64,000 bases of DNA. Source: Terrabacter sp. Ter38 (GTDB lineage: Bacteria > Actinomycetota > Actinomycetes > Actinomycetales > Dermatophilaceae). The DNA lies in assembly GCF_024519435.1 (NCBI RefSeq), contig NZ_JALJRZ010000003.1, positions 434,001 to 498,000 of the forward strand, read 5' to 3'. The position numbers and the translations under genes are program-made. A model generated the notes under the pieces. The model was not told the DNA's origin, did not search any database, and worked only from the letters and a program-made list of their open reading frames with translations. Shown piece by piece: positions 23,159 through 48,792 of the stretch. Each line of letters opens with the position of its first letter. The first letter of the stretch is position 1.

Positions 23159-24304
23159 TCAGCGGGTCCAGCGGTAGCCGGTGGGCTCCCCCTCGCCGAG
23201 GTCGACGATCGCGGCAACCGGACCGCCTCCGTCGGGGCCCTGGTGCGCCGCCGACACGGACACGAAGACGGCGGGGTCACCCGTCACCGAGGCGGTGACG
23301 CCGCCGACCGCCGACTTGATCTGGCGGTGCCAGTGCACGTCGGAGTCGTCGAGCATCGCGTTGCGTCGACCGTGCACGGTGCCGTCCTGGCTCACCTCGC
23401 ACTTGAGGAAGACGTTGACGAGCCGGCCCTGGAGGTCGCTGGTGTGCGGGCGCTCCGGCAGGTCGAGGCCGGCGTCCTTGATCGCACCCCAGACGCCGTC
23501 GGCGTCGAGCGCGTCCTGCATGACCGAATGGCCGATGCGGTAGCGGCCGCCGATGCCCTTGGTGTTGCCGACGACGACGACCTGCGCCTGGTCGAGCTCG
23601 ACGCCCGAGCTGCAGGAGGCGACCGACGAGAAGAGCGACCGGTCGTGCATGATGTCGGCGTCGGTCGGCATCTCGATCTCACCGAGGGCGACGGCGATGC
23701 CGAGGCCGGTCGTGCCGTTCGAGAGGTCCATCGACTCGTGCGTGTGCTCGGTCCAGACCTCGTGCCCGCGGGACTTCGCGTCACGGATCGTGTGGATCGT
23801 CAGCAGCGGTGTCTTGGTCTGGACGTAGTGGACGTCCGCCGGGTCCGTGATGCCGGCGCGCTCCATGGCGACCTTCACGGCGTCGGCGACCTTCTGGACC
23901 ATCGCGACGTAGCCGATCTCCTCGGGTTTGATCGGCTCGCTCATCGCGAAGCCGACGGTCAGCCGGGGCTCGTCGGACTGCTCGGCCTTCTCGGCCGGGA
24001 CGGTGGCGAAGATCGTCGCGTGCGGACTGATGATGCCGTCCGTGCCGCCGGACCACACGATCGGGACCTGCTTGACCTGGTCGGCCGGGGCGCCCTTCTC
24101 GACGAGGACTTCGCGGAAGGCGCGGTCGGCGATGATGCGCGTGTAGTCGTTGACGCCGCCGTTGCCCTCGGTCTTGCCGATGATGGCGATGACGCGGCTC
24201 GCCTCCATGACACCGTCGTCGATGAGCTTCGCGAGCTCCGACGCGTCGGCGACCGAGTGGATGGGGACCTTGCGCACCTCAATGGCTTCGGGCACGTGAA
24301 TCAC
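23159..24304 (-). CDS. Ring-opening amidohydrolase, barbiturase/cyanuric acid hydrolase (AtzD/TrzD) family
   Basis: 381 residues from GTG 24304. The three-repeat architecture of this small family is visible through its Ser/Lys regions: [16 protein letters not shown] and [13 protein letters not shown] (repeat A), QTKTPLLT and [17 protein letters not shown] (B), and [20 protein letters not shown] (C). Known members open the ring of barbiturate (oxidative pyrimidine pathway) or cyanuric acid. With a RutG-like permease, a molybdenum hydroxylase, carbamate kinase and FdrA in the same region, barbiturase is the better guess. The start overlaps the carbamate kinase stop (GTGA at 24301-24304), so the two are translationally coupled. 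Confidence 0.88.
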
Positions 24305-25248
24305 CTTTCTCTTTCAGGGTTTTCGATGACGGTGCCGACGTGGCCGTCGACGGCGGTGGCGAGCTGGTCGAGGGCCGTGATGATCGATCGCGACCCGCCC
24401 GACCGGACGAAGCGCAGGGCGGCCTCGACCTTGGGGCCCATCGAGCCGGACGCGAAGTGGCCGGCGGCGGCATACGCCTCCATCTGCTCGAGCGTGACGC
24501 GCCCGATGTCGTGGGCCTCGGGGGTGCCCCAGCCGGCGACCGCGTGCGCGACGTCGGTGGCGATCACGAGGACGTCGGCGTCGACGGCGCGCGCGAGCAG
24601 CGCCGCGGTGAGGTCCTTGTCGATGACGGCCTCGACGCCGTGGACGCTGCCGTCGTCGGCGCGGACAACGGGGATGCCACCGCCCCCGGCGGTGACGACG
24701 ACGTAACCGGCGGCGAGGAGCGTGTGGAGCGTGTGCGTCTCGAGGACCTCGACGGGCTCGGGCGAGGCGACGACGCGACGCCAGCCCTTCTCGCCGCGGT
24801 CCTCCCAGCGCTCGCCGTGGTCGATGAGGGTCTGCGCCTGGTCGCGGGGGAGGAAGCGTCCGATCGGCTTCGTCGGGTGCGTGAAACCCGGGTCGTCGGC
24901 GTCGACGAGGGTGCGCGTGATGATGGCGGCCAGGCGGCGCTCGATGCCGCGGGCGGCGAAGGCGGCCTCGAGGGTGTCGAGCAGCGTGAAGCCGATGGTC
25001 CCCTGCGTCTGCGCGCCGCACCAGTCGAGCGGGACCGGCGGCACGACGCTCGCGGCGAGCTCGTTCTTGACGAGGAGGTTGCCGACCTGGGGCCCGTTGC
25101 CGTGGGTGATGACGACCTCGTGATCGGCGGCGACGAGCTCGGCGAGGTGGTGGCTCGCGGTGGCGATGGCCTCGCGCTGGGCCTGGGGTGTCGCGCTGCC
25201 GTCGGGCCCGGTCATGGCGTTGCCACCCAGCGCCACGAGCACCCTCAC
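24301..25248 (-). CDS. arcC: Carbamate kinase
   Basis: 315 residues from GTG 25248, preceded by AAGGA at 6-nt spacing. [12 protein letters not shown] is the phosphate-binding start, [17 protein letters not shown] and [10 protein letters not shown] follow, and the C-terminal half has [12 protein letters not shown] and [14 protein letters not shown]. It converts carbamoyl phosphate and ADP to carbamate and ATP, capturing energy from ureido compounds. Its coupling to a barbiturase-family enzyme rather than to arginine deiminase genes points to a role in N-heterocycle breakdown. The gene symbol refers to the family. Confidence 0.93.
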
Positions 25249-25465
25249 GGCGCGTCCTTGCTTGTCGGGGCGGTCGTCATGGCGTGAGCCTAGGGAGCGC
25301 GGCCGAGCAGGCGCGTTGTCACCTCCTGCCCAACGCGGGCCCCCACATTGGCAGATGTATGCCGTCGGGTGCCGTGCGCGAGCGTGCCGCGCGCGAGCGT
25401 GCCGAGCCGGCGGCGGTGGGCGGCACGGATCACGCACGGCATACCGGCCGGCCGGGTACGAGGAA

Positions 25466-25791: not shown

Positions 25792-26628
25792 TCAAGCGCG
25801 CGTGAGGACGTCGGCCCACGAGCGCGGCTCGCGGCCGAGCAGCCGACGAAGGGGAGCGGCCTCGCCCACGAGACCACCGCGGTCGTAGGACGCGAACATC
25901 GCCAGCAGGTCGTCTCGCGCCTGGGCGGTGAGCGGGGCGCCTGGTCCGGCCACCCACTGCGCGAGGTCGACGCGGACGGCCAGGACGGGATGTCCGAGCA
26001 CGTCCGCCGCGATGGCGGCCTGGTCGCGGACCGACAGCACCTCGGGTCCGGCGAGGTCGAAGGTCACGCCCTCGTGGCCCGGTCGGGTCAGCACCGTCGC
26101 CGCGACCTCGGCCACGTCGTCGAGGTCGACGTCCGTGAACGGGGCGTCGAGCGAGTAGGGGACCGGGAGCCGGCCGGCGTGGGCCGCGTCGCGGAGGTTC
26201 TGGTGGTATGCCGCCGGGCGCAGCACCGTGGCTCCCGGCAGATGGGTGCGCACGACCTGCTCGGCTTCCGCCTTGCGCAGATGGTGCGGCATCGACGGGT
26301 CGTGCGGATGCAGCACCGAGTGGAAGGCGAAGCGGGTCACGCCGGCCCGCACTGCAGCACGGGCCACGCGGTCGGCGATGGCGACCTCGTCGGGGTGGAC
26401 GTTGGGTGCGAGGTGGTAGACCCCGTCGACCCCGTCGACGGCGTCGTCGAGCCCGAGCCCGGTCTCGAGGTCAACGACCGAGATCGACCGGGCCCCAGCG
26501 GCATACGCTGTCCCGGCGCGCGCCGGCGATCGCACGGCAGCGCGCACGGTGACGCCGTGTGACGTGAGGGAGCGCGTGACGGCGCGGCCGGTCTTGCCGG
26601 CCGCGCCGATCACGAGGACCGTCGTCAC
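25792..26628 (-). CDS. NmrA-like NAD(P)-binding protein (atypical SDR)
   Basis: 278 residues from GTG 26628. The N-terminal dinucleotide motif is VLVIGAAGKTGRAV; VYHLAPNVHPDE and FHSVLHPHD follow. There is no catalytic YxxxK, as in NmrA/azoreductase-like sensor or ether-reductase relatives. It ends with GLVGEAAPLRRLLGREPRSW, common in this group. It sits 2 nt after the hydantoinase B gene and may be co-transcribed with hyuAB. Whether it takes part in the same catabolism is unknown. Confidence 0.85.
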   Translation of the reverse strand: MTTVLVIGAAGKTGRAVTRSLTSHGVTVRAAVRSPARAGTAYAAGARSISVVDLETGLGLDDAVDGVDGVYHLAPNVHPDEVAIADRVARAAVRAGVTRFAFHSVLHPHDPSMPHHLRKAEAEQVVRTHLPGATVLRPAAYHQNLRDAAHAGRLPVPYSLDAPFTDVDLDDVAEVAATVLTRPGHEGVTFDLAGPEVLSVRDQAAIAADVLGHPVLAVRVDLAQWVAGPGAPLTAQARDDLLAMFASYDRGGLVGEAAPLRRLLGREPRSWADVLTRA

Positions 26629-28662: not shown

Positions 28663-30834
28663 TCAGGCCTCCGGGGTGGTCGTCGTGGCGGTCGTCGGGG
28701 TGGTCGTCGGGGTGCTCGCCGCCGCGGCGGTGGACCGGGTGATGACGAGGTTGCCGAGCGTGTCGACACGGACGACGAAGCCGGGGTGCACCGGGACCGT
28801 CGACCCGAACTCCTCGATGACCGCAGGGCCCTCCACCGTGTCGCCCGCGAGCAGGTCGGGTCGCCACCAGACGTCCGTGTCGACGTAGCCGGCGTCGGCG
28901 TCGAAGCACACGGGGCGGACGCTGCGGTGGGCCCGCTCGCGGACGTCGGCCGCGCCCTCCGACGGGGCGAGGTCACGCAGCTCCGGGCGGGTGATGGGGC
29001 CGACACCCGTGACGCGGAGGTTGACCCACTCGACCTGCTGGGTCGGGTCGCCCCGGAAGTCGTAGCCGTAGAGCGCGCGGTGCTCGTCGTGGAAGCGCGA
29101 GGCGACGCCCGCGGCATACGCCTCGTCGACGTCTCCCGCGGGCGCAGCGACGCGGACCTCGTAGGCCTGGCCGAAGTAGCGCAGGTCGACGGTGCGCGTG
29201 TACCGGTGGCTCTCGCGCGCGAAGCCCTCGCCGTCGAGGGCGCTCGCGGCCTTCGCGGTGAGGTCGTCGAACGTCTTCTGCACGGCGGCGTGGTCGAGCG
29301 CGTGGTGGCGCGCGACGGACGTCTGGACGTAGTCGTTCTTGACGTCGACGGTGAGCAGGCCGAAGGCGGAGACGTTGCCGGGGTTCTGCGGGACGACGAC
29401 GCCGGCGAGGCCGAGGATGTCGACGAGACGGCAGGCGAGCAGCGATCCCGAGCCACCGAAGGTCGCGAGCATGAAGTCGCGGACATCGAGGCCGCGCTTG
29501 ACCGACACCTGGCGCAGCGCGTTGGCCTGGTTCCACGCGGAGATCTCGAGGATCCCGGTCGCGCAGCGCTCGAAGTCGAGCCCGAGACGGTCCGCGAGCG
29601 CGGCGACGCCCGCGCGGGCCGCCTCGACGTCGAGGGGGATCTCGCCGCCGAGCAGGTGCGGGGGGATGCGTCCGAGCGTCACGTGGGCGTCGGTGATCGT
29701 CGGCTCGGTGCCGCCCTTGGCGTAGCAGAGGGGGCCGGGGTCGGCGCCCGCGGACTGCGGGCCCACCTTGAGCGAGCCCTCGGGGGAGATCCAGGCGATG
29801 GAGCCGCCGCCCGCCCCGACGGTGACGACGTCGATCATCGGGATCTTGCTCGGGTAGGCACCCACGGTGCCCTCGGTCGTCAGGGTCGGCTCACCCGCGA
29901 GGACGACGGACACGTCGGTCGACGTGCCGCCGCCGTCGCACGTGAGGACCTGGTCGAAGCCGGCGCGACCGGCGATGAGACCGGCACCGAGCGCCCCGGC
30001 GGCCGGACCCGAGAGGACCGTCGTGATCGGCTGGTGCACGACCTCGTCGGCCGAGAGCACGCCGCCGTTGGACTTCATGATGTAGAAGGGCAGCTTCGCG
30101 GTGCTGCCGACGAACTCGTCGAGCCGGTGGTGGATGTTCGCGACGTAGCGGGACACGTTGGGCTTGACCGCGGCGTCGACGAGGGTCGTCATCGACCGCT
30201 CGTACTCGCGGTACTCGCGCAGCACCTCCGAGCTGATCGAGACGACGGCGTCCGGGTGCTCGCGACGGAGCACCTCACGCATCGCGAGCTCGTGGCTGTC
30301 ATCGGCGTAGGAGTGCAGGAAGCACACGCCGATCGTCGTGATGCCGCGGTCCTTGAACCAGCGGGCGACCGTGACGGCACGTTCCTCGTCGAAGGGGCGG
30401 ATCTCGTTGCCCTCGAAGTCGAACCGGCCCCCGACCGTCTTGACGTAGTCGGCCGGCACGATGCGGGCGGGCTTGACCCAGAAGTAGGAGTTGCCGTAGC
30501 CGTCGGGGACGGCCTGGCGGGCGATCTCGAGGATGAACTCGTAGCCCTCCGTCGTGATGAAGCCGAGCGCCTCGACCTTGCCCTCGAGGAGCTTGTTCGT
30601 CGCGACGGTCGTGCCGTGCGAGACGGCGCTGATGTCGTCACCGCTCGCGTCCATGAGGTCGAGGACCTTGCGGACGCCGGCGAGGAAGCCGTCGGCGGGG
30701 TTGCTCGGTGTCGAGGGCGTCTTCGTCGTGACGAGCTCGCCCGTGTCCTCGTCGAGCGCGACGACGTCGGTGAACGTGCCACCGGTGTCGATGCCGATGC
30801 GGATCCGGCGGCGTGCGGAGGTGCCTGCTGTCAT
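28663..30834 (-). CDS. Hydantoinase A/oxoprolinase subunit (HyuA), ATP-binding
   Basis: 723 residues from ATG 30834. RIRIGIDTGGTFTDVVALDE is the actin-like ATPase phosphate-1 motif; SHGTTVATNKLLEGK, VLSGPAAGALGAGLI, TCDGGGTSTDVSVV and TFGGSGSLLACRLVDILG follow in family order. The C-terminal ~45 residues are a Thr/Ala/Pro tail. It phosphorylates the amide oxygen of the substrate so the HyuB partner can hydrolyse the ring. It is the first gene of hyuA-hyuB and perhaps the NmrA-like gene. A perfect GTTGGCA-N5-TGCCAAC palindrome lies 35 bp upstream. Confidence 0.92.
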   Translation of the reverse strand: MTAGTSARRRIRIGIDTGGTFTDVVALDEDTGELVTTKTPSTPSNPADGFLAGVRKVLDLMDASGDDISAVSHGTTVATNKLLEGKVEALGFITTEGYEFILEIARQAVPDGYGNSYFWVKPARIVPADYVKTVGGRFDFEGNEIRPFDEERAVTVARWFKDRGITTIGVCFLHSYADDSHELAMREVLRREHPDAVVSISSEVLREYREYERSMTTLVDAAVKPNVSRYVANIHHRLDEFVGSTAKLPFYIMKSNGGVLSADEVVHQPITTVLSGPAAGALGAGLIAGRAGFDQVLTCDGGGTSTDVSVVLAGEPTLTTEGTVGAYPSKIPMIDVVTVGAGGGSIAWISPEGSLKVGPQSAGADPGPLCYAKGGTEPTITDAHVTLGRIPPHLLGGEIPLDVEAARAGVAALADRLGLDFERCATGILEISAWNQANALRQVSVKRGLDVRDFMLATFGGSGSLLACRLVDILGLAGVVVPQNPGNVSAFGLLTVDVKNDYVQTSVARHHALDHAAVQKTFDDLTAKAASALDGEGFARESHRYTRTVDLRYFGQAYEVRVAAPAGDVDEAYAAGVASRFHDEHRALYGYDFRGDPTQQVEWVNLRVTGVGPITRPELRDLAPSEGAADVRERAHRSVRPVCFDADAGYVDTDVWWRPDLLAGDTVEGPAVIEEFGSTVPVHPGFVVRVDTLGNLVITRSTAAAASTPTTTPTTATTTTPEA

Positions 30835-30887: not shown

Positions 30888-31020
30888 ACCTGACCGTTTC
30901 CGCGCCAACCCTCGCCAGAACCGACGAGGGGGCCGTGTCGATGTCGAGGGCGAGCCGTCCGCTCCGTCCCCCGGGTGAGCGTGCCACGCTGGCACGACGC
31001 GACGAAGGAGCGAGTGAGAC

Positions 31021-31461
31021 ATGGCGAAGTACCTCATCGGCGTGGACTTCCAGGCCGGCGACGACCCGGCCCCGATGTCCGACTGGACCCCGGAGGAGGT
31101 CCAGGCCCACCTCGACTACTACGAGAGGCTCGTCGGCGAGCTCGAGGCCAACGGCGAGCTCGTCTCCTCGACGATCCTCACGGGCCCCGACCTCGCCAAG
31201 ATCGTCCGGTCCGACGGTGCCGCGCCGGTCGTCACCGACGGACCGTTCCAGGAGTTCAAGGAGTGGCTCGCCGGCTTCCAGGTCGTCGAGGTCGACTCGC
31301 AGGAGCGCGCCCTCGAGATCGCGTCGCTCATGTCCGCGGTGCCGGGTCGGGGCGGCGTGCCCACCCGGCAGCCGATCCACGTGCGCCAGGTCATGGAGCA
31401 GGCGCCCGCGAACACCGACGAGATGGACGCCTTCCTGCGTACCGCGGGTGGCACCCGCTGA
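31021..31461 (+). CDS. YciI/DGPF-family protein
   Basis: 146 residues. The N-terminal MAKYLIGVDFQAGDDPAPMS and the central VVTDGPFQEFKEWLAGFQVV (the DGPF signature, DGPF-x-E-x-KE) identify the family. These small proteins are nearly always encoded beside ECF42-type sigma factors and probably act in their signalling or output. The stop codon overlaps the apparent start of the sigma factor gene. Confidence 0.88.
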   Translation: MAKYLIGVDFQAGDDPAPMSDWTPEEVQAHLDYYERLVGELEANGELVSSTILTGPDLAKIVRSDGAAPVVTDGPFQEFKEWLAGFQVVEVDSQERALEIASLMSAVPGRGGVPTRQPIHVRQVMEQAPANTDEMDAFLRTAGGTR

Positions 31462-32678
31462 CCTCGGCACCCGGAGTCGACGACCTGCTGCGCACGCTCG
31501 CGCCGCAGGTCGTCGGCATCGTCAGTCGCCGGTTCGGCGACTTCGACTCAGCCGAGGACGCTGTCCAGGAGGCCCTGATCGCGGCAGCCCGGCGCTGGCC
31601 CGTCGACGGGCTTCCCGACGAGCCGCGGGCGTGGCTCGTGACGACCGCCTCGCGGCGGCTCGTCGACCTGTGGCGCAGTGACGCGGCCCGGCGCGAGCGC
31701 GAGGCGCGCGTCATCGCCTGGGAGGTCCCGGCGCGCGACCCCGTCGACCACGACGACAGCCTCACGGTCCTCTTCCTCTGCTGCCACCCGTCGTTGACCC
31801 CGGCCTCGGCGATCGCGCTGACGCTGCGCGCCGTCGGCGGCCTGACGACCGCGGAGATCGCCCGGGCCTTCCTCGTGCCGGAGTCGACGATGGCGCAGCG
31901 GATCAGCCGCGCCAAGGCGACGATCCGCGCCTCCGGCGCAGGCTTACGTATGCCGTCCGGCGCCGACCGCGAGGAGCGTGCCCGCTCCGTGCTCCACGTC
32001 CTCTACCTCGTCTTCAACGAGGGCTATGCGAGCACGCACGGTGACAGGGTGCAGCGCACCTCGCTGTCCCGCGAGGCGATCCGCCTGACCCGGATGCTCA
32101 TCGACGGCTCACCCGACCACCCCGAGGCCCTCGGCCTGCTGTCGCTCATGCTGCTGCTCGAGGCCCGCACTCCGTCGCGCAGTGACGCCTCGGGGGCGCT
32201 CGTGCCGTTGCCCGACCAGGACCGCTCGAGGTGGGACGTCTCGCTCGTGGCCGAGGGTCTCGACCTGCTCGGCCGGGCCCTGGCGCTCGGCGCCGTGGGG
32301 GACTACCAGCTCCAGGCCGCCATCGCCGCGGTCCACGACCGGGCGCCCACGGCCGCGGACACCGACTGGGACGAGATCCTCTCGCTCTACGGGCTGCTCG
32401 AGCAGGTCACCGGCAACCCGGTGGTCACGCTCAACCGGGCCGTGGCGGTGGCCATGGCCCAGGGCCCGGAGGCCGCCCTCGAGGTCGTCGACGAGGTCGA
32501 GGACCGGCTCGGCACGACGCACCGCTGGCTCGCGGTGCGCGGGCAGCTGCTCGAGATGGCGGGCGACACGGCCCCGGCTGCCGACCTGCTCGACCGCGCG
32601 GCGGCGACCGCGACGAACGAGGCGGAGCGTCGGCATCTCGCCGCCCGGGCCGCTCGACTGCGCTCGCCCCGGCCCTGA
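31458..32678 (+). CDS. ECF42-like RNA polymerase sigma factor with C-terminal TPR-like extension
   Basis: About 406 residues. Sigma region 2 (FGDFDSAEDAVQEALIAAA, DEPRAWLVTTASRRLVD) and region 4 (ALTLRAVGGLTTAEIARAFL, STMAQRISRAKATI) are followed by a ~230-residue helical extension with FNEGYASTHGDR and DWDEILSLYGLLEQ, typical of ECF42. The frame has no ATG, GTG or TTG near its proper N-terminus. The only candidate is CTG at 31458, whose bases overlap the TGA of the YciI gene. Translation may therefore start at CTG or depend on coupling or frameshifting from the YciI gene. The true start is uncertain. Confidence 0.85.
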   Translation: MTSAPGVDDLLRTLAPQVVGIVSRRFGDFDSAEDAVQEALIAAARRWPVDGLPDEPRAWLVTTASRRLVDLWRSDAARREREARVIAWEVPARDPVDHDDSLTVLFLCCHPSLTPASAIALTLRAVGGLTTAEIARAFLVPESTMAQRISRAKATIRASGAGLRMPSGADREERARSVLHVLYLVFNEGYASTHGDRVQRTSLSREAIRLTRMLIDGSPDHPEALGLLSLMLLLEARTPSRSDASGALVPLPDQDRSRWDVSLVAEGLDLLGRALALGAVGDYQLQAAIAAVHDRAPTAADTDWDEILSLYGLLEQVTGNPVVTLNRAVAVAMAQGPEAALEVVDEVEDRLGTTHRWLAVRGQLLEMAGDTAPAADLLDRAAATATNEAERRHLAARAARLRSPRP

Positions 32679-39151: not shown

Positions 39152-40029
39152 GCGATGGCTCCTGCACGGTCGGCGGCCTGGGGGAGGACCCGTCGGGTCA
39201 GCTCGGTGACGAGCATGCGGCGGTAGTCGGCGCTCGCGTGGATGTCGCCCTCGGGCTCGACGTGCCCGCGCACCGCCTCGGCAACGGTGTCGAGCGCAGC
39301 GTCCCACTCGCCCGAGCCCGGCTCGACCCCGTCGAGGGCCGGCCCGAGGTCGAGGACCGAGGGCACGTCGGTGACGGAGACGAAGGAGGCGCGAGCGCCG
39401 GAGACGACGCCGTCGGCGACCGTCAGGGCCACCCCGACGCCGGCCATGGCGTAGTCGCCGTGCCGGCGGGCCGCCTCGGTGAAGGCCGTGCCGGTCCCGG
39501 CCGGGAAGCGGCCGAAACGCACCGCGACGGCGAGCTCCTCGGCCGCGAGCGACGTCTCGAGGGCGCCGAGGAAGAAGTCGGACCACGCGACCTCGCGCGA
39601 CCCGGACGGACCTGCCACCTCGACGACTCCGTCGGTCAGGGCCAGGATCGCAGGCATCTCACCGGCCGCGTCGGCGTGGGCGATGGAGCCGACCGTCGTG
39701 CCGCGGTTGCGGATGGCCGGGTGGGCGACGTTGACGAGCGCCTGGCGCAGGAGGGGGAGGGCGGCATACGCCTCCGCGGAGCGCTCGAGACCGGCGTGGC
39801 GCACGAGGGCACCGACGCGTACGGCCTCGGGTGTCACCTCGACGGTGTCGAGGCCGGCGACGCGGTTGATGTCGACGAGGTGCGCCGGCGAGGCCAGGCG
39901 CATGTTGAGGATCGGGATGAGACTCTGGCCGCCCGCGAGGACCTTGCCGTCGTGCCCGACCTCGGTGAGGACGGAGACGGCCTGCTCGACGGTGAGCGGT
40001 GCGTGGTGCTCGAAGGGGGCGGGCTTCAC
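39148..40029 (-). CDS. Molybdenum hydroxylase FAD-binding medium subunit (CoxM-like)
   Basis: 293 residues from GTG 40029 (VKPAPFEHHAPLTVEQAVSVL), which matches family N-termini; the longer frame to 40104 would cover the candidate operator. FAD-binding motifs LAGGQSLIPILNMRL and RGTTVGSIAHADAAGE are clear. It is the first gene of the operon coxM-coxS-coxL-coxG-amidase (40029 to 34583). A TTGGCA-N5-TGCC operator candidate lies about 70 bp upstream. Confidence 0.94.
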   Translation of the reverse strand: MKPAPFEHHAPLTVEQAVSVLTEVGHDGKVLAGGQSLIPILNMRLASPAHLVDINRVAGLDTVEVTPEAVRVGALVRHAGLERSAEAYAALPLLRQALVNVAHPAIRNRGTTVGSIAHADAAGEMPAILALTDGVVEVAGPSGSREVAWSDFFLGALETSLAAEELAVAVRFGRFPAGTGTAFTEAARRHGDYAMAGVGVALTVADGVVSGARASFVSVTDVPSVLDLGPALDGVEPGSGEWDAALDTVAEAVRGHVEPEGDIHASADYRRMLVTELTRRVLPQAADRAGAIA

Positions 40030-40175: not shown

Positions 40176-41663
40176 TCAGCGGCGGCGCAGGTCAGGCCCG
40201 TTGGGCTCGTCCTGGTAGAGGTCGTCGATGCCGTCACTGTCGCCGTACTCCGCCTTGCCCAGTGCGATCATCGTGCCTCCCGTGGCATCGGCCCGGTCAC
40301 GCAGGTCGGCGGGGGCCACGGCGCGGGCGACGTGGTAGGCCACGATGGTCACGATCGTGCCGAGCGCGATGCCACCGAGCGTGAAGTCCGACGTGAAGAC
40401 GAGCGAGACGCCGCCGATGCCGATGATGATGCCGGCCGCGATCGGCACGAGGTTGATCGGGTTGCCGAAGTCGACCCCGTTCTCCTTCCAGATCTTCGCG
40501 CCGAGCAGGCCGATCATGCCGTAGAGCACGACGGTGATGCCGCCGAGTACGCCGCCCGGCACGGAGGCCACGAGCGCCCCGAACTTCGGCGAGAGGCCGA
40601 AGATGATCGCGACGACCGCGGCGACGTAGTAGGCCGCCGTGGAGTAGACGCGGGTGGCCGCCATGACGCCGATGTTCTCGGCATACGTCGTCGTCGGCGA
40701 GCCGCCGACCGAGCTGGCGATGACGGTGCCGATGCCGTCGGCCGCGATGGCGCGCCCCATGTAGGGGTCGAGGTTCGACTTCGTCATCTCGGCGACGGCC
40801 TTGACGTGGCCGGTGTTCTCCGCGATGAGCGCGATGACGGCCGGGAGGACGAGCAGGATGGCGGCGACCGAGAACGACGGTGCGTGGATGCCGACGATCT
40901 CCTTGCCGTCAGCGCCTGTCGTCGACGTCGGCGGGAGGCCGAACCAGGGCTGGCTCGCGAGGTTGTCGAAGTTCGTGCGGAAGTGCGTCGTGACCTTGCC
41001 GGCGCCGGCGTCGAAGGACGTGATCTGGCCGAACATCTTGTCGAAGAGCCACGAGATGATGTAGCCGAAGATCAGGGCGAGAAAGACCGCGATGCGCGAC
41101 GCGAAGCCCTTGAAGGCGACCGCGCAGATGATCGTGAACGCCATGACGAGCAGCGCGACCCACTGGTCCTGGGGCCAGTAGATGCTGGCGACGACCGGCG
41201 CGAGGTTGAAGCCGATGAGCATGACGACGGCGCCCGTCACGACCGGCGGCAGCACCTTGTGCAGCACCGCGGACCCGGCGAAGTGGATCGCCACACCGAC
41301 GAGTGCGAGCACGACACCGGCGACGAGGATCGCGCCTGTCACGTCGGCGGACGTGCCCCCTTGCGCCCGGATGGCCGCGACGGCGCCGACGAAGCTCGCC
41401 GACGTGCCGAGGTAGCTCGGGACCTTCCCGTTGACGATCAGCAGGAAGCAGATCGTCGCGATCCCGCTCATCATGATCGCGAGCTGGGCGTTGAGACCCA
41501 TGACCAGCGGGAAGACGAAGGTCGCCCCGAACATCGCGACGACGTGCTGCGCACCGAGACCGATCGTCCTGCCCCACGCGAGTCGTTCGTCAGGTGCCAC
41601 GACGTCGTCGGGGCCCATCGTCTTGCCGTCCCCGTGCAGTTTCCAGCCCAAGCCCAAAGCCAT
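40176..41663 (-). CDS. NCS2 uracil/pyrimidine permease (RutG/UraA-like)
   Basis: 495 residues from ATG 41663, preceded by AGGAG at 6-nt spacing; an in-frame start at 41684 is less well placed. About 14 hydrophobic segments. The substrate-site helix reads IALIAENTGHVKAV and a second signature SSVGGSPTTTYAENIGVMAA is very close to RutG-type pyrimidine permeases, so uracil or a related pyrimidine is favoured over xanthine. It should bring the substrate of the catabolic locus into the cell by proton symport. A GTTGCCACATGC motif related to the hyuA palindrome lies about 15-25 bp upstream of the start. Confidence 0.9.
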   Translation of the reverse strand: MALGLGWKLHGDGKTMGPDDVVAPDERLAWGRTIGLGAQHVVAMFGATFVFPLVMGLNAQLAIMMSGIATICFLLIVNGKVPSYLGTSASFVGAVAAIRAQGGTSADVTGAILVAGVVLALVGVAIHFAGSAVLHKVLPPVVTGAVVMLIGFNLAPVVASIYWPQDQWVALLVMAFTIICAVAFKGFASRIAVFLALIFGYIISWLFDKMFGQITSFDAGAGKVTTHFRTNFDNLASQPWFGLPPTSTTGADGKEIVGIHAPSFSVAAILLVLPAVIALIAENTGHVKAVAEMTKSNLDPYMGRAIAADGIGTVIASSVGGSPTTTYAENIGVMAATRVYSTAAYYVAAVVAIIFGLSPKFGALVASVPGGVLGGITVVLYGMIGLLGAKIWKENGVDFGNPINLVPIAAGIIIGIGGVSLVFTSDFTLGGIALGTIVTIVAYHVARAVAPADLRDRADATGGTMIALGKAEYGDSDGIDDLYQDEPNGPDLRRR

Positions 41664-41676
41664 TCCGACTCCTATG

Positions 41677-41689
41677 GTTGCCACATGCG
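41677..41689. promoter_or_regulatory. Operator candidate upstream of the uracil permease
   Basis: GGTTGCCACATGC matches the left half plus spacer of the hyuA palindrome (GTTGGCACATGC) at 11 of 12 positions; the right half is degenerate (GGTGA). Confidence 0.4.
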
Positions 41690-41884: not shown

Positions 41885-42847
41885 TCATGGGGGTCCGAAG
41901 TTCCACGACGGGGCAGCCAAGCCCACGGGGCAGGTACGGCCGCAGCCGCGGGGCCGGCCGTCCCAGCCCTTGGCCCGCAGGACCTGGGCGACCTCCAGCG
42001 CGAGGGCACAGGCCGTCGGGACGAGGTCGCTCCAGTAGCAGCGCAGCGTGGTGCGCCCGGCGACCGCGGCGGCTCGGTCACGGCGCCCGTCGCGCTGGAC
42101 GTCGAGCCAGCCGCCGTGACCGAGGCGGCCATCGATCTCCGCAACGACGCCGTGGTCGTACTCACGGTCGCGGCGCCCGGCCTTGCCGAACGGTGACTGC
42201 GACGTCCCGCACGGCAGGCCGTGGGCACGCTCCACGTCACGGATGAAGCGCCGCTCGGCCGGGCTCTCGCAGCCCTCGGCGACCTCGGCGAAGATCTCGA
42301 GGAGCAGGGCCCGGTCGCTCTGCTGCGGGCGCCCGGCCAAGGCTGCCCTGAGTCGGTCGGTGCTCGTGAGCTCGAGTCCGATCGCCTTGGCTGCCACGGC
42401 GACCGCGCGGTCGGGGCGGCGACGGTCGGACAGGTCGAGGACGGTGTGCTCGACGGTGGTGCGGTGCGGCCAGCTCACGGGGTCGACCCGATCCAAGGCG
42501 TGGCGACTCCGCGAGATGACCACCCCGGGCACGTCGCGGACGCGGCGGGTGGCCGGCACGACGACGCGGATCTGGTCCGGCGCCGCCCGGACGAGCCCCC
42601 AGAGGTAGCCGGCGCTGCTGCCGCACAGGGCCGAGCCGCGGCCGGCGTGGAGCAGCGCCGCCACGGCGAGGGTCTCCCAGTCCTGACGGCCGGGCATCGT
42701 CTGGTAGACCCCTGGGTGCACGGCGATCCAGCGCCCGCTCGTCAGCCGGCACTCGACGGCCTTGCGGGTCATGCCCCCGCTGAGGGCCTGGGCGCGGCTC
42801 ACCAGACCCGACTGCCCCGCGGCTCGGGCTCGGAGCAGCGCGTCCAT
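41885..42847 (-). CDS. Second orphan AbiEi/DUF559-type protein
   Basis: 320 residues from ATG 42847 (MDALLRARAAGQSGLVSRAQ); the frame is open further upstream, through the upstream repeat, to 43000. Residues 1-60 (LVSRAQALSGGMTRKAVECR, ... IAVHPGVYQT) are the AbiEi-like winged helix. The C-terminal third has DREYDHGVVAEIDGRLGHGG and TTLRCYWSDLV, the DUF559/Vsr-like acidic core. Domain order matches the protein at 5216-6145 with low sequence identity. No toxin partner is present. A 20-bp sequence encoding its C-terminus (SWNFGPP-stop) recurs upstream of its start, paralleling the first gene. It interrupts the catabolic locus between permease and pucR. Confidence 0.8.
   Translation of the reverse strand: MDALLRARAAGQSGLVSRAQALSGGMTRKAVECRLTSGRWIAVHPGVYQTMPGRQDWETLAVAALLHAGRGSALCGSSAGYLWGLVRAAPDQIRVVVPATRRVRDVPGVVISRSRHALDRVDPVSWPHRTTVEHTVLDLSDRRRPDRAVAVAAKAIGLELTSTDRLRAALAGRPQQSDRALLLEIFAEVAEGCESPAERRFIRDVERAHGLPCGTSQSPFGKAGRRDREYDHGVVAEIDGRLGHGGWLDVQRDGRRDRAAAVAGRTTLRCYWSDLVPTACALALEVAQVLRAKGWDGRPRGCGRTCPVGLAAPSWNFGPP
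41890..41909. repeat. Flanking direct repeat, downstream copy (gene-2 element)
   Basis: GGGGGTCCGA-A-GTTCCACGA. On the - strand it encodes the last residues SWNFGPP and leads into the TGA of the second AbiEi/DUF559 gene. It matches 42930-42949 at 19 of 20 positions in the same orientation. Confidence 0.75.
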
Positions 42848-42929
42848 CCGCCGATGGTGGCGGCGCCGGACGGAGCGCCACGGCGGCCGTCCACAGGCTC
42901 GAGCCGTGTGGAAGATCAGGCCCTGAACA

Positions 42930-42949
42930 GGGGGTCCGATGTTCCACGA
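42930..42949. repeat. Flanking direct repeat, upstream copy (gene-2 element)
   Basis: GGGGGTCCGA-T-GTTCCACGA, 19 of 20 identical to the copy at 41890-41909. It lies about 80 bp upstream of the gene's ATG and in the same frame, reading SWNIGPP without the stop. Confidence 0.75.
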
Positions 42950-42989
42950 ACCGCGCGACACGGCATACGCGAGCACGTGGGTGCGGCGG

Positions 42990-44714
42990 TCAGATGCCAC
43001 GCATCTGGTGGATCTTGAGCGCGAGGGCGAGGGTGAGGCGCAGGTCGGGGTCGGTCGTGAAGGGGCCGAGGATCTTCTCGAGCTTGCCGATGCGGTAGCG
43101 CAGCGTGTTGTAGTGGAAGAAGAGCAGACGCGCCGTCTCGGCGACGTTCATGTTGGTGTCGATGAGGATGCTCAGGGTCTGGCGCAGGCCGGCGTACTCC
43201 GCTGAGTCGTCGGTGGCCAGCTCGCGCAGCGACTCGGTGACGAAGCGGCGGAGGTCGGCGCCGTCGGGGATGAGCGCGAGCAGGCGGTAGATGCCGAGGC
43301 CGTCGACGTGGGTCGTGGCGCCGTCGCCGTGCATCTGGCGTCCGACGGTGACCGCCGAGAGCGCCTCGTCGTATGCGTGGGGCAGCCCGGCGACCGAGGT
43401 GATGGGCCGTGAGACTCCGGCCGAGAAGCTGCGCCGACCGCCGCCGCCGTCGCCCCGCACGACCCGGACGTACTCGCCGACGATCCGCATGACCTGATCG
43501 GTCTCGGCGCCGGAGGGGACGCCGATGAGGGCGACCACCTCGCGGCTGAACCCCATGACGGGAGAACGGGCGTCGCGCACCGCCACGGCGTGCGTCCAGG
43601 CGCGGGCGAAGCGCTGCTGGAGGAAGCGCACCTCGTCGGCGTCGCGCGTCGAGCGGTCGTCGTCCTCGTCGGTCTCGGCCACGACGACGACCATGGGCCG
43701 GTCGATGTCCCAGCCGAGCGAGCTGGCGTGGGCGACGGCGTCGACGGGGGAGCCGGCACGGCCGGCGAGGGCGTCGCGGAGGAACTCGGCGCGGTACTTG
43801 CTCTCGACCGCCGAGACGGCCTGGTCCTTGGTGATGGCGAGCGCGGCGACCGTCGCGGCCCGCTCGAGCAGGCGCACGTCGTCGACCGTCAGGTGACGGT
43901 GGCTGCAGAACGCCATGAGCACGCCGTGGTCGAGGTGGCCGGCGACGATGCGCACGGCGGAGCGGTTGGCGGTCGGGCCGTCGGGTCGGGGTCCCATCGG
44001 CTCGGCCTCGGTGAGCAGACGCCCCGTGCGGTCGAAGCACTCGAGGGACAGCGCGTGGTCGAGCTCGCGCTGCGAACCGGCACGGGCGATGACGCGGCCG
44101 TCGGTCGTCGTGACCATCACGGCGCCGTCGAGGAAGCCGACCACCTGCTCGCACAGGTCGTCCAGAGAGCCGCCGGCGAGCACGATCTGCACGAGGGCCC
44201 GGTCGGCGTCCTCGAGCCGGCGCAGGATCGCGGTCTGGTGCTCGAGCATCGCGCTCAGCACGTCGGTCGTGAAGGTCGCGATGTGGTCGAGCGGGACGTC
44301 GATGAGCGGCAGCCCCGTCGAGTCGGCGGCCCTGACGAGGGCGGTGAGCGGCTTGCCCGACAGCCCGGAGACGACGAGCCCTGCGGCTCCGGCCCGGTCG
44401 AGGGCGGCGACGGTGTCGGCGAGCGACGCTGCGTCACCGTCCTGCTCCGCGAGGGCCGCCGCGTCGGCGAGGACGAGCCGGTGGGTCAGCCGGGCCGGGG
44501 CGTCGTCGCGCAGGGCGGAGCGGAGCGGCGTCGTGCTGTCGACGCTGACGTCGAGGCGTGCGGCCTCGGCACGGACGACGCCGTGCGCCGTCGCGGCGAG
44601 GCCGGCGATGAGCCGGAGCGAGATGCCGGACACCTCGGGCTCGGGCACGCCGGAGCCCCCCGCGGCTGGCAAGTCACCCTCGGGGAGGGCCGGATCGTTG
44701 GCAACTTTCACCAT
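42990..44714 (-). CDS. PucR-family transcriptional regulator
   Basis: 574 residues from ATG 44714. An N-terminal PucR-type sensing region (residues ~30-165, with VVSGLSGKPLTALVRAAD) is followed by a GAF-like middle (VTTTDGRVIARAG) and a C-terminal CdaR/PucR helix-turn-helix, LFFHYNTLRYRIGKLEKILG, near residue 540. PucR proteins control purine, pyrimidine and amino-acid catabolism in response to pathway metabolites. It is divergent from the DUF2877-FdrA genes. A TTGGCA-containing operator candidate overlaps its first codons, suggesting autoregulation. Most likely the regulator of this locus. Confidence 0.92.
   Translation of the reverse strand: MVKVANDPALPEGDLPAAGGSGVPEPEVSGISLRLIAGLAATAHGVVRAEAARLDVSVDSTTPLRSALRDDAPARLTHRLVLADAAALAEQDGDAASLADTVAALDRAGAAGLVVSGLSGKPLTALVRAADSTGLPLIDVPLDHIATFTTDVLSAMLEHQTAILRRLEDADRALVQIVLAGGSLDDLCEQVVGFLDGAVMVTTTDGRVIARAGSQRELDHALSLECFDRTGRLLTEAEPMGPRPDGPTANRSAVRIVAGHLDHGVLMAFCSHRHLTVDDVRLLERAATVAALAITKDQAVSAVESKYRAEFLRDALAGRAGSPVDAVAHASSLGWDIDRPMVVVVAETDEDDDRSTRDADEVRFLQQRFARAWTHAVAVRDARSPVMGFSREVVALIGVPSGAETDQVMRIVGEYVRVVRGDGGGGRRSFSAGVSRPITSVAGLPHAYDEALSAVTVGRQMHGDGATTHVDGLGIYRLLALIPDGADLRRFVTESLRELATDDSAEYAGLRQTLSILIDTNMNVAETARLLFFHYNTLRYRIGKLEKILGPFTTDPDLRLTLALALKIHQMRGI
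44697..44712. promoter_or_regulatory. Operator candidate at the pucR start
   Basis: GTTGGCA-ACTTT-CACC has the left half-site and spacing of the hyuA palindrome and overlaps pucR codons 1-6. Further upstream a CTACC-N7-GGTAG inverted repeat (44724-44740) lies in the divergent pucR/DUF2877 promoter region. Confidence 0.4.
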
Positions 44715-44837: not shown

Positions 44838-45818
44838 ATGGACGACGGTCTCGACCTGACGCTGCTGCCCGCCGCCGTGTCGCCTCTCGTGGCGGGCGAG
44901 CTGGCCGGCGCCCCGCGGCGCTGCCGGGTGCTCGCCGCCTTCCCGACGTGCGTCTACCTCGATCTCGGGGCACACGAGCGCGTCCTCGCCGTGCTCGCCT
45001 CCGACGCCGTCGCCCTGCCCATCGGCGTCCGCCTCACGCTGCCGTCGACCGAGGTCCGCTGGGGTGTGGAGCCCGGCGGGCACGTCGTCGTGGGGGAGGG
45101 GCGGGTGCGTCTGCCGCGCGCCGACGTCGTCGCGGCCCGGCTGCTGCGGCCGGCGCGAGTGCGCCCCGCGCCGCGCAGATCCGCTGGTGACGGCTGGCTC
45201 CCCGAGCCCGGTGTCCTCGGCGACCTCGCCCACGACCTCGCCGCCTCGGCCCTCGCCGGACGCTCGACCGACCCGGGGGTCCGCGGACTCGTCGGTGTCG
45301 GGCGCGGCCTGACCCCGAGCGGCGACGACGCGATCTGCGGCGTCCTGCTCACCCTTGCTGCGGTGGACGCTCCGCAGGCCCGGCGAGCCGTGTCGGCCCT
45401 GCGCACTGCCGTCCGCACGGTGCTCCCGTGGACGACGAGCCTCTCGGCCGCACTCCTCGTCGCCGCGGGGGCGGGGTATGCCGTCCCGGACGTCGCGCGC
45501 CTCGTGACTCGTCTGGTCTCCGGACCCGGCTCGACCAACAGGTCGGCCGTCGCCACCACGGGCCCGATCCGCGCCGGTGCACCGTCGAGCCTGTCGGTTG
45601 ACCCGCCGGGGGGGAGCGACCGCACCGACCTCAGCGACCGCGCCGACCTCAGCGACCTCGTCGACCGGGTGCTCGCCATCGGCCACACGTCCGGTCGCGA
45701 CCTCCTGTCGGGAGTCAGCGGTGCGCTGCGTGCCGTCGACGCGCTCGAGCCCGTCCCCCGCCCCGCACCCCGAGATGCCCCACGACCCGAATCCCAGGAA
45801 GGACTCCACCGTGGCTGA
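44838..45818 (+). CDS. DUF2877 protein (YlbF-like, FdrA-associated)
   Basis: 326 residues from ATG 44838 with GGAGG about 10 nt upstream. LVGVGRGLTPSGDDAICGVLL is the DUF2877 signature, with SLSAALLVAAGAGYAVPDVA and RVLAIGHTSGRDLLSGV later. In E. coli the homologue YlbF is encoded with FdrA, YlbE (DUF1116) and a carbamate kinase-like protein, a set linked to oxamate carbamoyltransferase activity as I recall. The next gene overlaps it by 8 nt. A 27-residue stretch before the C-terminal domain (SDRTDLSDRADLSDLVDR) is repetitive. Confidence 0.85.
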   Translation: MDDGLDLTLLPAAVSPLVAGELAGAPRRCRVLAAFPTCVYLDLGAHERVLAVLASDAVALPIGVRLTLPSTEVRWGVEPGGHVVVGEGRVRLPRADVVAARLLRPARVRPAPRRSAGDGWLPEPGVLGDLAHDLAASALAGRSTDPGVRGLVGVGRGLTPSGDDAICGVLLTLAAVDAPQARRAVSALRTAVRTVLPWTTSLSAALLVAAGAGYAVPDVARLVTRLVSGPGSTNRSAVATTGPIRAGAPSSLSVDPPGGSDRTDLSDRADLSDLVDRVLAIGHTSGRDLLSGVSGALRAVDALEPVPRPAPRDAPRPESQEGLHRG

Positions 45819-48792
45819 CCACGTCGAGCTGAGAACCGGCACCTACCTCGACTCCGTGACCCTCATGCAGGTCTCGCGCACCGTCGCCGCCGCTCCCGGC
45901 GTCGAGGCCGCGCAGGTCGCGATGGCGACCGAGCTCAACCTCGAGGTCATCCGGGGCATGGGCTTCGCCGTGCCCGACTCGGCGCCCAACGACCTCGTCG
46001 TCGCCATCCGCGGTGACGAGGCCGGCATCGCTGCCGGGCAGGCTGCGCTGGAGTCCGCGCTCACCCAGAGCCGTTCTGCCGCAGGCGCGTCCACCGGTTT
46101 CGGTGAGCCGCCGACGGCTCGCACGCTCGGTGGCGCGATCCGCCTCTCGGGCGCCGACCTCGCGCTCGTCTCGGTGCCGGGGGAGCACGCCGTCACCGAG
46201 GCGCTCGACGCCGTCCGCGCAGGGGTGTCGGTCATGGTCTTCTCCGACAACGTCCCGGTCGAGGACGAGGTGCGCCTCAAGGACGCCGCCGCCGCTGCCG
46301 ACGTGCTCGTCATGGGGCCCGACTGCGGCACCGCCGTCGTCGGCGGCGTCGCCCTCGGCTTCGCCAACGTCGTGCGACCCGGCTCCGTCGGCCTCGTCGC
46401 GGCGTCGGGCACGGGCGCCCAGCAGGTCATGTGCCTCCTGGACGCCGCGGGCGTCGGCATCAGCCACTGCCTCGGTGTCGGTGGCCGCGACCTGTCGTCC
46501 GCCGTCGCCGCCCGCTCGACGAAGCAGGCCCTCGCCGCGCTCGCGGCCGACCCGGACACCACGTCGGTCGTCGTCGTCTCCAAGCCACCCGCTCCCGAGG
46601 TGCTCGCCGACCTGGAGGCGTATGCCGCCGGGCTGGGCAAGCCGGTCCACTGGGCCACGCTCGGTGCCGGGCGACCGGACCTCACGGCGGCCGTCGAGTC
46701 GGTGCTGACCGCCGTCGGCGCGGACGCGCCGGTCTGGCCGACGTGGGAGGCTGCGGGCGACCGGTCGGCCACCACGTCCTCCGGGTCCCTGCGTGGCCTC
46801 TTCTGCGGCGGCACCCTCGCCGACGAGGCGATGCTCGTGGCCGGCGAGGTGCTGGGTGACATCAAGTCGAACACCCCGCTGCGCCCAGAGCTGGCCCTCG
46901 GCCATGACCTGCGCGACCCTGGTCACGTCGTCATCGACTTCGGCGACGACACGATGACCCGCGGGCGCGCCCACCCGATGATCGACCCGTCACTGCGCCT
47001 CGACCGCATCACCGTCGAGGCCGCCGACCCGACGTGCGGCGTGCTCCTCCTCGACCTCGTGCTCGGCCACGGCGCGCACGCCGATCCCGCTCCCGAGCTC
47101 GCTGCCGCCGTCCGTGCTGCCCGCGAGACCGCCGCCGCGAGCGGCCGTGAGCTGCCCGTCGTCGTCTCGGTCACCGGCACGACCTCCGACCCCCAGGGGC
47201 TCGACCGGTCGGCGCAGGCTCTCGTGGACGCCGGCGCGGACGTCCTGCTCTCCAACGCAGCAGCCACGCGCCGCGCCCTGCAGCTGCTCGGCCACGACGG
47301 GACGGCACCGGAGCGTGCGACGGGCGACACGGCATACGCCCTCGTGGCCGGGACGGCCACCGACGTCGGTGCCGAGCCGCTCCACGGACTGCTCGCTGCG
47401 GACGTCACGGTCGCGGCCGCCGGGGTCTCGCTCTTCGCAGACGCCCTCCGGGCGCAGGCGGTGTCGGTGACCGAGGCCTCGTGGCAGCCGCCGATGGCAG
47501 GCACGGCGGCCGATCTCGGTCGGGTCCTGGCCGCCCCCCGCCGCGACGCCGCCAACGCCGAGGCCCTGCGCCGGATGACCGCGGCAGGTGCCGACCTCGT
47601 CGACGTCCGCCCCGCGCACGAGGTGCTCGGGCTCGAACGTGGCACCTTCCTGCACGCGGGGCCTCCCATCGAGTTCGCCCGAGCCTCAGGGCCGCTCAAG
47701 GGTGCGCTCATCGGCGCGATGCTCTTCGAGGGGCTCGCCGACACGGCCGAGGAGGCCGAGGCCACGCTCGAGAAGGGCGACGGCATCACGCTCGAGCCGT
47801 GCCACCACCGTGACGCGGTCGGCCCGATGGCCGGCGTCATCAGCCCGTCGATGTGGGTCTACGAGCTGCGCGACGAGGTGCACGACAACACGTCGTGGTG
47901 CTCGCTCAACGAGGGCCTCGGCAAGGTGCTGCGCTACGGCGCCTACGGTCCCGAGGTCATCGACCGGCTGCGGTGGATGAACTCCGTCCTCGGTCCGATC
48001 CTCCAGCAGGCCGTCCGGGCCCGCGTGGAGCAGCAGGGCTCCATCGACGTCAAGGCGATCACCGCCCAGATGCTCCAGATGGGCGACGAGGGCCACAACC
48101 GCAACCGCGCGGGCTCGCTCATGCTCCTGCGCGAGCTGCTCCCGACGATGATCACCGCCGACGCGTCCTCCGCAGACATCGCCGAGGCGGTCCGCTTCTC
48201 GGGTGCCAACGAGCACTTCTTCCTCAACCTCGGTATGCCGGCGTGCAAGCTGAGCACCCTTGCGGCCCATGGCATCCCGGGATCCTCGGTCGTGACGACG
48301 ATGGCGCGCAACGGCACGGACTTCGGCATCCGCGTGTCGGGGACGGGCGACGCGTGGTTCACAGGTCCGGCCAACACGCCCGAGGGCCTCTTCCTCGGGT
48401 CCTACGGCCCGGACGACGCGAACCCCGACATCGGTGACTCCGCGATCACCGAGACGGCGGGCATCGGCGGCTTCGCGATGGCCGCCGCGCCGGCGATCGT
48501 GAAGTTCGTCGGCGGCGACGTGCCGTTCGCGCTGCGGGCCACGCAGACGATGTACGAGATCACCGTCGGCGAGCACACGGCCTACCAGGTGCCGATCCTC
48601 GAGTTCCGTGGCACGCCGACCGGCATCGACGTGGCAGCCGTCGCGCGCACCGGCATCCTGCCGCAGATCAACACCGGCATGGCGGGACGCGTCGCGGGCA
48701 CGGGCCAGGTCGGCGCGGGTCTTGTGAACCCGCCCGAGCAGTGCTTCACCCAGGCTCTGACCGCTCTCGCGGCGGCCGTGGGCGAGGGCTGA
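45811..48792 (+). CDS. FdrA-DUF1116 (YlbE) fusion protein, candidate carbamoyltransferase
   Basis: 993 residues from GTG 45811, with AGGAAGGA before it. Residues ~1-550 match FdrA, a protein with succinyl-CoA-synthetase-like domains: VMGPDCGTAVVGGVALGFAN, VGLVAASGTGAQQVMCLLD and VIDFGDDTMTRGRAHPMIDP. Residues ~560-993 match DUF1116/YlbE: IEFARASGPLKGALIGAMLF, DTSWCSLNEGLG-like segments and GEHTAYQVPILEFRGTPTGID. In E. coli these are two separate genes. The reaction expected by analogy is reversible carbamoyl transfer between a ureido acid and phosphate. It overlaps DUF2877 and shares the locus with carbamate kinase. A hairpin terminator follows. Confidence 0.88.
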   Translation: MADHVELRTGTYLDSVTLMQVSRTVAAAPGVEAAQVAMATELNLEVIRGMGFAVPDSAPNDLVVAIRGDEAGIAAGQAALESALTQSRSAAGASTGFGEPPTARTLGGAIRLSGADLALVSVPGEHAVTEALDAVRAGVSVMVFSDNVPVEDEVRLKDAAAAADVLVMGPDCGTAVVGGVALGFANVVRPGSVGLVAASGTGAQQVMCLLDAAGVGISHCLGVGGRDLSSAVAARSTKQALAALAADPDTTSVVVVSKPPAPEVLADLEAYAAGLGKPVHWATLGAGRPDLTAAVESVLTAVGADAPVWPTWEAAGDRSATTSSGSLRGLFCGGTLADEAMLVAGEVLGDIKSNTPLRPELALGHDLRDPGHVVIDFGDDTMTRGRAHPMIDPSLRLDRITVEAADPTCGVLLLDLVLGHGAHADPAPELAAAVRAARETAAASGRELPVVVSVTGTTSDPQGLDRSAQALVDAGADVLLSNAAATRRALQLLGHDGTAPERATGDTAYALVAGTATDVGAEPLHGLLAADVTVAAAGVSLFADALRAQAVSVTEASWQPPMAGTAADLGRVLAAPRRDAANAEALRRMTAAGADLVDVRPAHEVLGLERGTFLHAGPPIEFARASGPLKGALIGAMLFEGLADTAEEAEATLEKGDGITLEPCHHRDAVGPMAGVISPSMWVYELRDEVHDNTSWCSLNEGLGKVLRYGAYGPEVIDRLRWMNSVLGPILQQAVRARVEQQGSIDVKAITAQMLQMGDEGHNRNRAGSLMLLRELLPTMITADASSADIAEAVRFSGANEHFFLNLGMPACKLSTLAAHGIPGSSVVTTMARNGTDFGIRVSGTGDAWFTGPANTPEGLFLGSYGPDDANPDIGDSAITETAGIGGFAMAAAPAIVKFVGGDVPFALRATQTMYEITVGEHTAYQVPILEFRGTPTGIDVAAVARTGILPQINTGMAGRVAGTGQVGAGLVNPPEQCFTQALTALAAAVGEG

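Follow-up and report, generated by a model that had tools for sequence, protein, structure and literature searches.

Gene content of the locus

We analysed a stretch of 64,000 nucleotides from Terrabacter sp. Ter38 (contig NZ_JALJRZ010000003.1, positions 434,001 to 498,000; the whole stretch is hereafter the window), in which positions 23159-48792 hold a set of genes suggestive of the oxidative breakdown of pyrimidine bases coupled to ATP recovery. Window frames on both strands were scanned against Pfam and NCBIfam, and every gene named in an earlier interpretation made from the letters alone (hereafter the sequence-only reading) was found at the locus, although its gene list had omitted HyuA, HyuB and an NmrA-like protein. 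On the minus strand, a gene of the AtzD/TrzD/barbiturase family (23159-24304; PF09663, 474.6 bits) begins within the end of a carbamate kinase gene (24301-25248; PRK12352, 327 bits against a cut-off of 266; arcC, 352 bits against 358), the start of the former and the stop of the latter overlapping by 4 bases. Further along the same strand lie genes for a nitrilase-type (CN_hydrolase) amidase (34583-35506; PF00795, 163 bits), a CoxG-like protein (35509-36165; PF06240, 87 bits) and all three subunits of a molybdenum hydroxylase of the xanthine oxidase family, namely the large subunit (36162-38612), the 2Fe-2S small subunit (38609-39151, an open frame with cysteine motifs whose homologues occupy the same place in related loci) and the FAD-binding medium subunit (39148-40029; PF00941 and PF03450). 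An NCS2 nucleobase permease (40176-41684; PF00860) and a PucR-family regulator (42990-44714; PF13556 and PF17853 over the cut-off, PF07905 below it) complete this strand, the regulator gene being divergent from allH. The plus strand carries AllH (44838-45818; PF11392, 69.6 bits) and an FdrA-AllG fusion (45811-48792), which we divided, at a point of our own choice, into an AllF (FdrA) half (45811-47577; PF00549; NF004760, 417 bits against a cut-off of 433) and an AllG half (47575-48792; PF06545, 320 bits). Pfam currently names the former DUF2877 and DUF1116 families AllH and AllG, respectively, as oxamate carbamoyltransferase subunits.

Identity of the ring-opening enzyme

Judged by its sequence, the ring-opening enzyme is a barbiturase. 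Its best match among solved structures is "Barbiturase" 5hwe (674 bits), and the other six solved matches, at 318 bits or less, are cyanuric acid hydrolases or one unspecified ring-opening amidohydrolase. According to Peat and colleagues (PMC3758960), barbiturase is separated from cyanuric acid hydrolase by five positions, Asn195, His321, Lys325, Val345 and Ser/Ala346 in AtzD numbering, and the window enzyme carries the published barbiturase set (N196, H326, K330, V350 and S351 in its own numbering). N, H, K, V and S are likewise found in all 80 named loci, which are the best 80 of at least 565 confirmed. In a sample of 396 genomes of Actinomycetota, 22 enzymes were classed as barbiturase; of these, 5 have S at the fifth position, 7 have A and 10 have G, so that the last 10 match the published set, with its Ser or Ala, at four of five positions. 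Where the sequence-only reading had called the enzyme a member of the barbiturase/cyanuric acid hydrolase family, the 5hwe match and the signature thus bear out the barbiturase side.

The NCBIfam label, by which the product is a cyanuric acid amidohydrolase (NF052395, 470 bits against a cut-off of 360), suggests that the locus serves s-triazines or cyanuric acid, and the AtzC/cytosine-deaminase-like neighbour of the barbiturase gene in one other locus (L087) agrees with this. However, both the solved-structure match and the signature point to barbiturase, and no biuret or allophanate hydrolase was found among the scanned window frames, which are part of the window's frames. We reject this explanation as having next to no probability, and the NF052395 label appears misleading for this locus. 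According to two sources, barbiturase accepts barbiturate as a substrate but not cyanuric acid (PMC4051656, PMC3758960).

Linkage of barbiturase and AllG in Actinomycetota

The sample of 396 genomes was searched for the AtzD/barbiturase family and for AllG. The former was found in 27 genomes and the latter in 49; the 22 genomes with both are exactly those whose AtzD-family enzyme has N, H, K and V, while none of the remaining five (RTRGG, N-GGG or a truncated copy) has AllG. Fisher's test gives p = 7e-23 for the barbiturase-AllG association with kinship ignored, and, as the genomes are related, p values of this kind overstate independence. Linked barbiturase and AllG occur in six families of the sample (f1, f3, f16, f33, f39 and f47), and other AtzD enzymes, without AllG, in three (f6, f50 and f57). 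The two genes share a contig in 17/22 genomes, about 2.7-43 kb apart, and lie on different contigs in the other 5, whose assemblies are split into about 80 to 590 contigs.

A search for AllG in 47 genomes of our choosing from among the named loci found it in 45, on the barbiturase contig in 42 (always on the opposite strand) and within 41 kb in 40, in taxa that include Intrasporangiaceae, Nocardioidaceae, Propionibacteriaceae, Pseudonocardiaceae and Jiangellaceae. The locus gene maps cover DNA up to 10 kb either side of the barbiturase gene; within these limits, carbamate kinase is found in 77 of the 80 named loci, HyuB in 60, HyuA in 48 and an NmrA-like gene in 37. We conclude that the gene set is real and that the linkage between barbiturase and AllG is strong. 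A genome search for co-occurrence, proposed with the sequence-only reading, has thereby been run, and barbiturase and FdrA/AllG proved to be linked in several actinobacterial families, not just in this genome.

Two loci of family f50 (L074 and L075), from genomes without AllG, carry a different clade of the AtzD family (N-GGG) beside an amidase; in L074 this enzyme also stands beside the same hydroxylase family and an acyl-coenzyme A (CoA) synthetase.

The molybdenum hydroxylase

By score, the large subunit is a full-length member of NF040766 (1541 bits against a cut-off of 950), labelled as the group 5 large subunit of aerobic carbon monoxide (CO) dehydrogenase. Together with the CoxG-like protein, which has a hydrophobic C-terminal segment as seen by eye, this membership would favour an aerobic CO dehydrogenase unrelated to ring breakdown. 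Against this, the motif PYRGAGR aligns where the CO dehydrogenases 1n5w and 8uem have YRCSFR and YACSFR, the CoxL loop being missing, and CO dehydrogenase matches the subunit at lower scores than do quinoline 2-oxidoreductase and 6-hydroxypseudooxynicotine dehydrogenase. The family also co-occurs with AtzD-family or AllG genes: of the 30 sample genomes with NF040766 over the cut-off, 29 have one or the other and 21 are barbiturase-AllG genomes. Among 69 barbiturase genomes it is over the cut-off in 68, including both Rhodococcus genomes discussed below. The loop and the context of barbiturase and AllG, in which the window subunit differs from what its family name implies, argue against CO as the substrate; we reject a CO dehydrogenase here as very improbable, and the NF040766 label appears misleading for this locus. 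Where CO oxidation in Actinomycetota is estimated from this label, the result may be misleading.

The NF040766 large subunit is instead the best candidate, from its sequence relationships and its company, for the uracil-oxidising enzyme of the pathway. We know of no paper naming genes for the oxidation of uracil to barbiturate, and none are named in the literature searched; the locus offers candidate genes for this old enzyme activity.

AllFGH and carbamate kinase

Pfam and pairwise matches place all three AllFGH subunits at the locus. Their identities to the Escherichia coli proteins are 36% over 581 residues for AllF and FdrA, 48% over 400 residues for AllG and YlbE, and 32% over 174 residues for AllH and YlbF. 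The carbamate kinase, 42% identical to E. coli YbcF/AllK, lies in the same locus, about 20 kb from allFGH, and is present at E ≤1e-93 in 66 of the 67 AllG-bearing barbiturase genomes. The arrangement resembles the E. coli oxamic transcarbamylase, where AllFGH and carbamate kinase (AllK) also occur in one locus, but differs in that F and G are fused and in that AllG forms a separate, barbiturase-linked clade. To our knowledge, this enzyme has so far been known only from allantoin fermentation. In the E. coli study (PMC11326118), AllFGH converts oxalurate to carbamoyl phosphate and oxamate, and ureidoglycolate dehydrogenase precedes it as the supplier of oxalurate. The allFGHK genes of a nitrifier, as described in PMC12625717, adjoin triuret and biuret genes; the likeness lies in AllFGHK standing beside genes for other ureide substrates, the difference in that a cyanuric acid hydrolase was not found there by the authors, who interpret the genes as serving the use of oxalurate.

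One explanation would be that AllFGH at the window locus is an ordinary oxalurate carbamoyltransferase of purine or allantoin breakdown that merely lies near barbiturase. Clear homology to E. coli AllF, AllG and AllH, the Pfam domain names and the PucR-family regulator speak for it; the company that AllG keeps with barbiturase in 22/22 and 45/47 genomes, and the carbamate kinase near nearly all named barbiturase genes, speak against it. So does the AllG tree. It was built from 33 of the 52 AllG places in the 396-genome sample, the 30 best places from the named genomes and E. coli; lower-scoring sample places, including a second copy in the barbiturase genome G386, were left out, as were 15 of the 45 first copies and all second copies from the named genomes (for example in G406, G412, G418, G424, G427 and G435). 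Within this selection, the AllG of barbiturase genomes forms one clade of 52 rows (support 96/88), the window AllG among them, which amounts to one change on the tree against a mean of 11.3 after shuffling, and E. coli AllG falls outside, grouped with two other Actinomycetota sequences. As the window AllG stands apart from that of E. coli, we do not file it as an oxalurate enzyme. Further to that, no AllD-type ureidoglycolate dehydrogenase was over the cut-off in the 69 barbiturase genomes, though there were 14 weaker matches (the E. coli control was positive), and the Terrabacter genome itself gave no AllD match at all. We therefore regard an oxalurate enzyme as distinctly unlikely here.

Ureidomalonate, the product of barbiturase, is like oxalurate an acylurea and is one carbon longer. 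Given this likeness, the separate AllG clade and the lack of AllD over the cut-off, the AllFGH reaction would most likely be the phosphorolysis of ureidomalonate to malonamate and carbamoyl phosphate.

Absence of urease was considered as additional support and rejected. A urease match is over the family cut-off in 15 of the 67 AllG-bearing barbiturase genomes, and the Terrabacter genome has no match, but the rates of 5/22 in the sample barbiturase genomes and 86/396 overall do not discriminate.

Rhodococcus as an exception

AllG is missing from two of the 47 named genomes searched, Rhodococcus sp. IEGM 1409 and Rhodococcoides fascians, and both have only weak carbamate kinase matches (E about 1e-9). 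The R. fascians locus shares barbiturase, permease, molybdenum hydroxylase, CoxG and HyuAB with the window, in the order barbiturase, amidase (PF01425), PucR, second amidase, XdhC, PucR, permease, medium (MoM), small (MoS) and large (MoL) hydroxylase subunits, CoxG, HyuA, HyuB and NmrA. In IEGM 1409 an amidase 77% identical to the R. fascians one also follows barbiturase, and the hydroxylase is on another contig; in the window, unlike in these genomes, no amidase comes directly after barbiturase. AllG and a clear carbamate kinase are thus missing together while the upstream genes are retained, and this joint absence, with an amidase beside barbiturase, is the pattern expected if AllFGH and the kinase replace a hydrolytic ureidomalonase. 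In the known oxidative pyrimidine pathway, as in Rhodococcus, uracil is converted to barbiturate, on which barbiturase and then ureidomalonase act. By their gene content the Rhodococcus loci match this urea-producing route. Rhodococcus erythropolis JCM3132 is presumably the source strain of the characterised barbiturase. It is placed in the characterised-barbiturase group in PMC3758960. In a quick-method barbiturase tree rooted at its midpoint, one clade includes Rhodococcus; the 19 barbiturases that fall outside it are all from AllG genomes, which makes loss of AllG in Rhodococcus the simpler reading.

Permease, amidases and a possible acid end product

The sequence-only reading had described the permease as RutG-like. 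The resemblance stands (344 bits), but the score is far under the RutG cut-off of 758, and the protein is uracil-permease-like: among solved structures, the protein scores 186 bits against UraA and 61 bits against uric acid-xanthine permease. A substrate motif of the permease was dropped as evidence, since uric acid-xanthine chains also carry E in the alignments shown. ENIG or ENMG is present in all permeases read (those of L073 and L208 being outside this set) but one, the second permease of L086, which has Q. The one f16-type permease searched, that of L078, is nearest to SLC23A1, not UraA.

In the window the nitrilase-type amidase gene comes directly after CoxG, a slot taken in some other loci by a PF01425-type amidase. 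Among 24 short loci with a hydroxylase at 1387 bits or more, the window's included, a nitrilase- or PF01425-type match lies near CoxG in 15, and the DNA covered in the other 9 holds no such amidase. The nitrilase-type enzyme may be a malonamate amidohydrolase. Among NCBIfam families, the ligase beside barbiturase in L091 scores best with malonyl-CoA synthase (446 bits, under the cut-off of 558); in L074, where the AtzD enzyme is not a barbiturase, the nearby acyl-CoA synthetase has malonyl-CoA synthase in second place, and the L073 ligase is nearest to one for an acid other than malonate. A CoA-transferase family III gene occurs in L159, next to barbiturase, and in L082, following HyuB. Such ligase and CoA-transferase neighbours would be in keeping with malonate or another acid as the end product.

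Proposed pathway and its difficulties

We suggest, with a probability of roughly 0.65, that the locus is a conserved actinobacterial system for oxidative breakdown of pyrimidine bases that conserves energy through AllFGH and carbamate kinase. The permease would import a pyrimidine base, which the three-subunit molybdenum hydroxylase, with CoxG, may oxidise to barbiturate. From its family membership and signature, barbiturase is expected to open the ring to ureidomalonate; homology, linkage and the Rhodococcus replacement pattern suggest that AllF-AllG-AllH with phosphate would convert this to malonamate and carbamoyl phosphate. Carbamate kinase could then make ATP from carbamoyl phosphate, and an amidase (of the nitrilase type here, of the amidase-signature type in some loci) would release malonate and ammonia from malonamate. 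Many soil Actinomycetota probably carry this set for oxidation of uracil-type bases, ring opening and ATP recovery. The broader proposition, that an AllFGH-type ureidomalonate:phosphate carbamoyltransferase replaces ureidomalonase in a large part of Actinomycetota and that the CO dehydrogenase group 5 enzymes are the missing uracil/thymine hydroxylase genes, seems to us to have an even chance of being right.

If the scheme is true, the AllFGH family, whose genes were identified in 2024, would have a second biological role, and bacteria would be able to use barbiturate without making urea and with a gain of ATP. No account of this locus was found in the literature searched; the original 2001/2002 barbiturase papers and the 2012 family paper lie outside it, and an earlier remark on the neighbourhood is possible. 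The literature found for FdrA and that found for barbiturase or ureidomalonate did not overlap.

Several observations weigh against this scheme. Barbiturase and AllG are 2 Mb apart in two named genomes (G416 and G432) and on separate contigs in three (G411, G426 and G428), and G279 has both without a clear carbamate kinase. G304, the barbiturase genome without NF040766 over the cut-off, has a diverged molybdenum subunit only, and the sample genomes with NF040766 include five with AllG and no AtzD-family gene (G013, G028, G032, G135 and G157), three with a non-barbiturase AtzD enzyme and no AllG (G181, G192 and G297) and one, 80% complete, with neither (G378). The L064 ligase is nearest to crotonobetaine/carnitine-CoA ligase and that of L074 to an unspecified acyl-CoA synthetase, and the cytosine-deaminase/AtzC-like enzyme beside barbiturase in L087 (f39), a neighbour that otherwise counts in favour of the scheme, scores slightly higher to AtzC, of the cyanuric acid pathway, than to cytosine deaminase. 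The main weakness lies in HyuA (28663-30834, minus strand; PF01968 and PF05378) and HyuB (26631 to about 28514, minus strand, its start codon approximate; PF02538, 455 bits), hydantoinase/oxoprolinase-type A and B subunits that resemble ATP-dependent N-methylhydantoinase, 5-oxoprolinase and caprolactamase, and that apparently stand for an ATP-using step not needed in a simple uracil route. Besides the AllFGH loci, the pairing of HyuAB with the molybdenum enzyme extends to R. fascians, where AllFGH is missing, and to three f9 genomes in which AllF and AllG occur in the absence of any AtzD-family gene. In the f9 loci (L063, L064 and L065) the genes form an operon-like run, MoM-MoS-MoL-HyuA-HyuB-AllF-AllG, followed in L065 by a PF04199 cyclase-family gene.

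This distribution implies that the true substrate may not be simply uracil, and the pathway may either take a further substrate, such as a hydantoin or a 5-substituted barbiturate, or begin with a different compound; HyuAB performing a second ring-opening reaction is our guess. Alternatively, the compound degraded would be another heterocycle, such as a purine, hydantoin or 5-substituted pyrimidine; there the molybdenum enzyme and HyuAB would come first, barbiturase would open a later ring, and AllFGH would still phosphorolyse the final acylurea. The association of HyuAB with the hydroxylase in all three settings above agrees with this, as does N-methylhydantoinase being the nearest solved relative of HyuA (479 bits). 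On the other hand, the published substrate of barbiturase is barbiturate, and among solved structures a uracil permease is the closest to the window permease; we consider another heterocycle unlikely. For the pyrimidine scheme, the claim of the sequence-only reading that AllFGH and carbamate kinase stand in place of ureidomalonase is strengthened by the linkage across families and the Rhodococcus replacement pattern, whereas HyuAB are left unexplained by it.

Other genes in and around the locus

Between carbamate kinase and HyuB lies the gene for the NmrA-like NAD(P)-binding protein (25792-26628, minus strand; PF05368). The interval at 30.9-34.5 kb holds a YCII protein, a sigma factor and a repetitive protein. 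No relatives of the YCII and repetitive proteins were found among loci L058-L097, the sigma factor frame being outside this comparison, and the three genes are taken as passengers. The sigma factor, with DUF6596, and the YCII protein upstream of it occupy 30975-32678 on the other strand, and the repetitive protein (32872-33891), in which short RVDIDAIV-type repeats are numerous, has no Pfam match. An open frame at 41885-43000, between PucR and the permease, has no Pfam or NCBIfam match. Outside the locus, a ZMP/ZTP riboswitch (21217-21293, 44.7 bits) lies between a formyl transferase gene (PF00551) and a purH-type gene.

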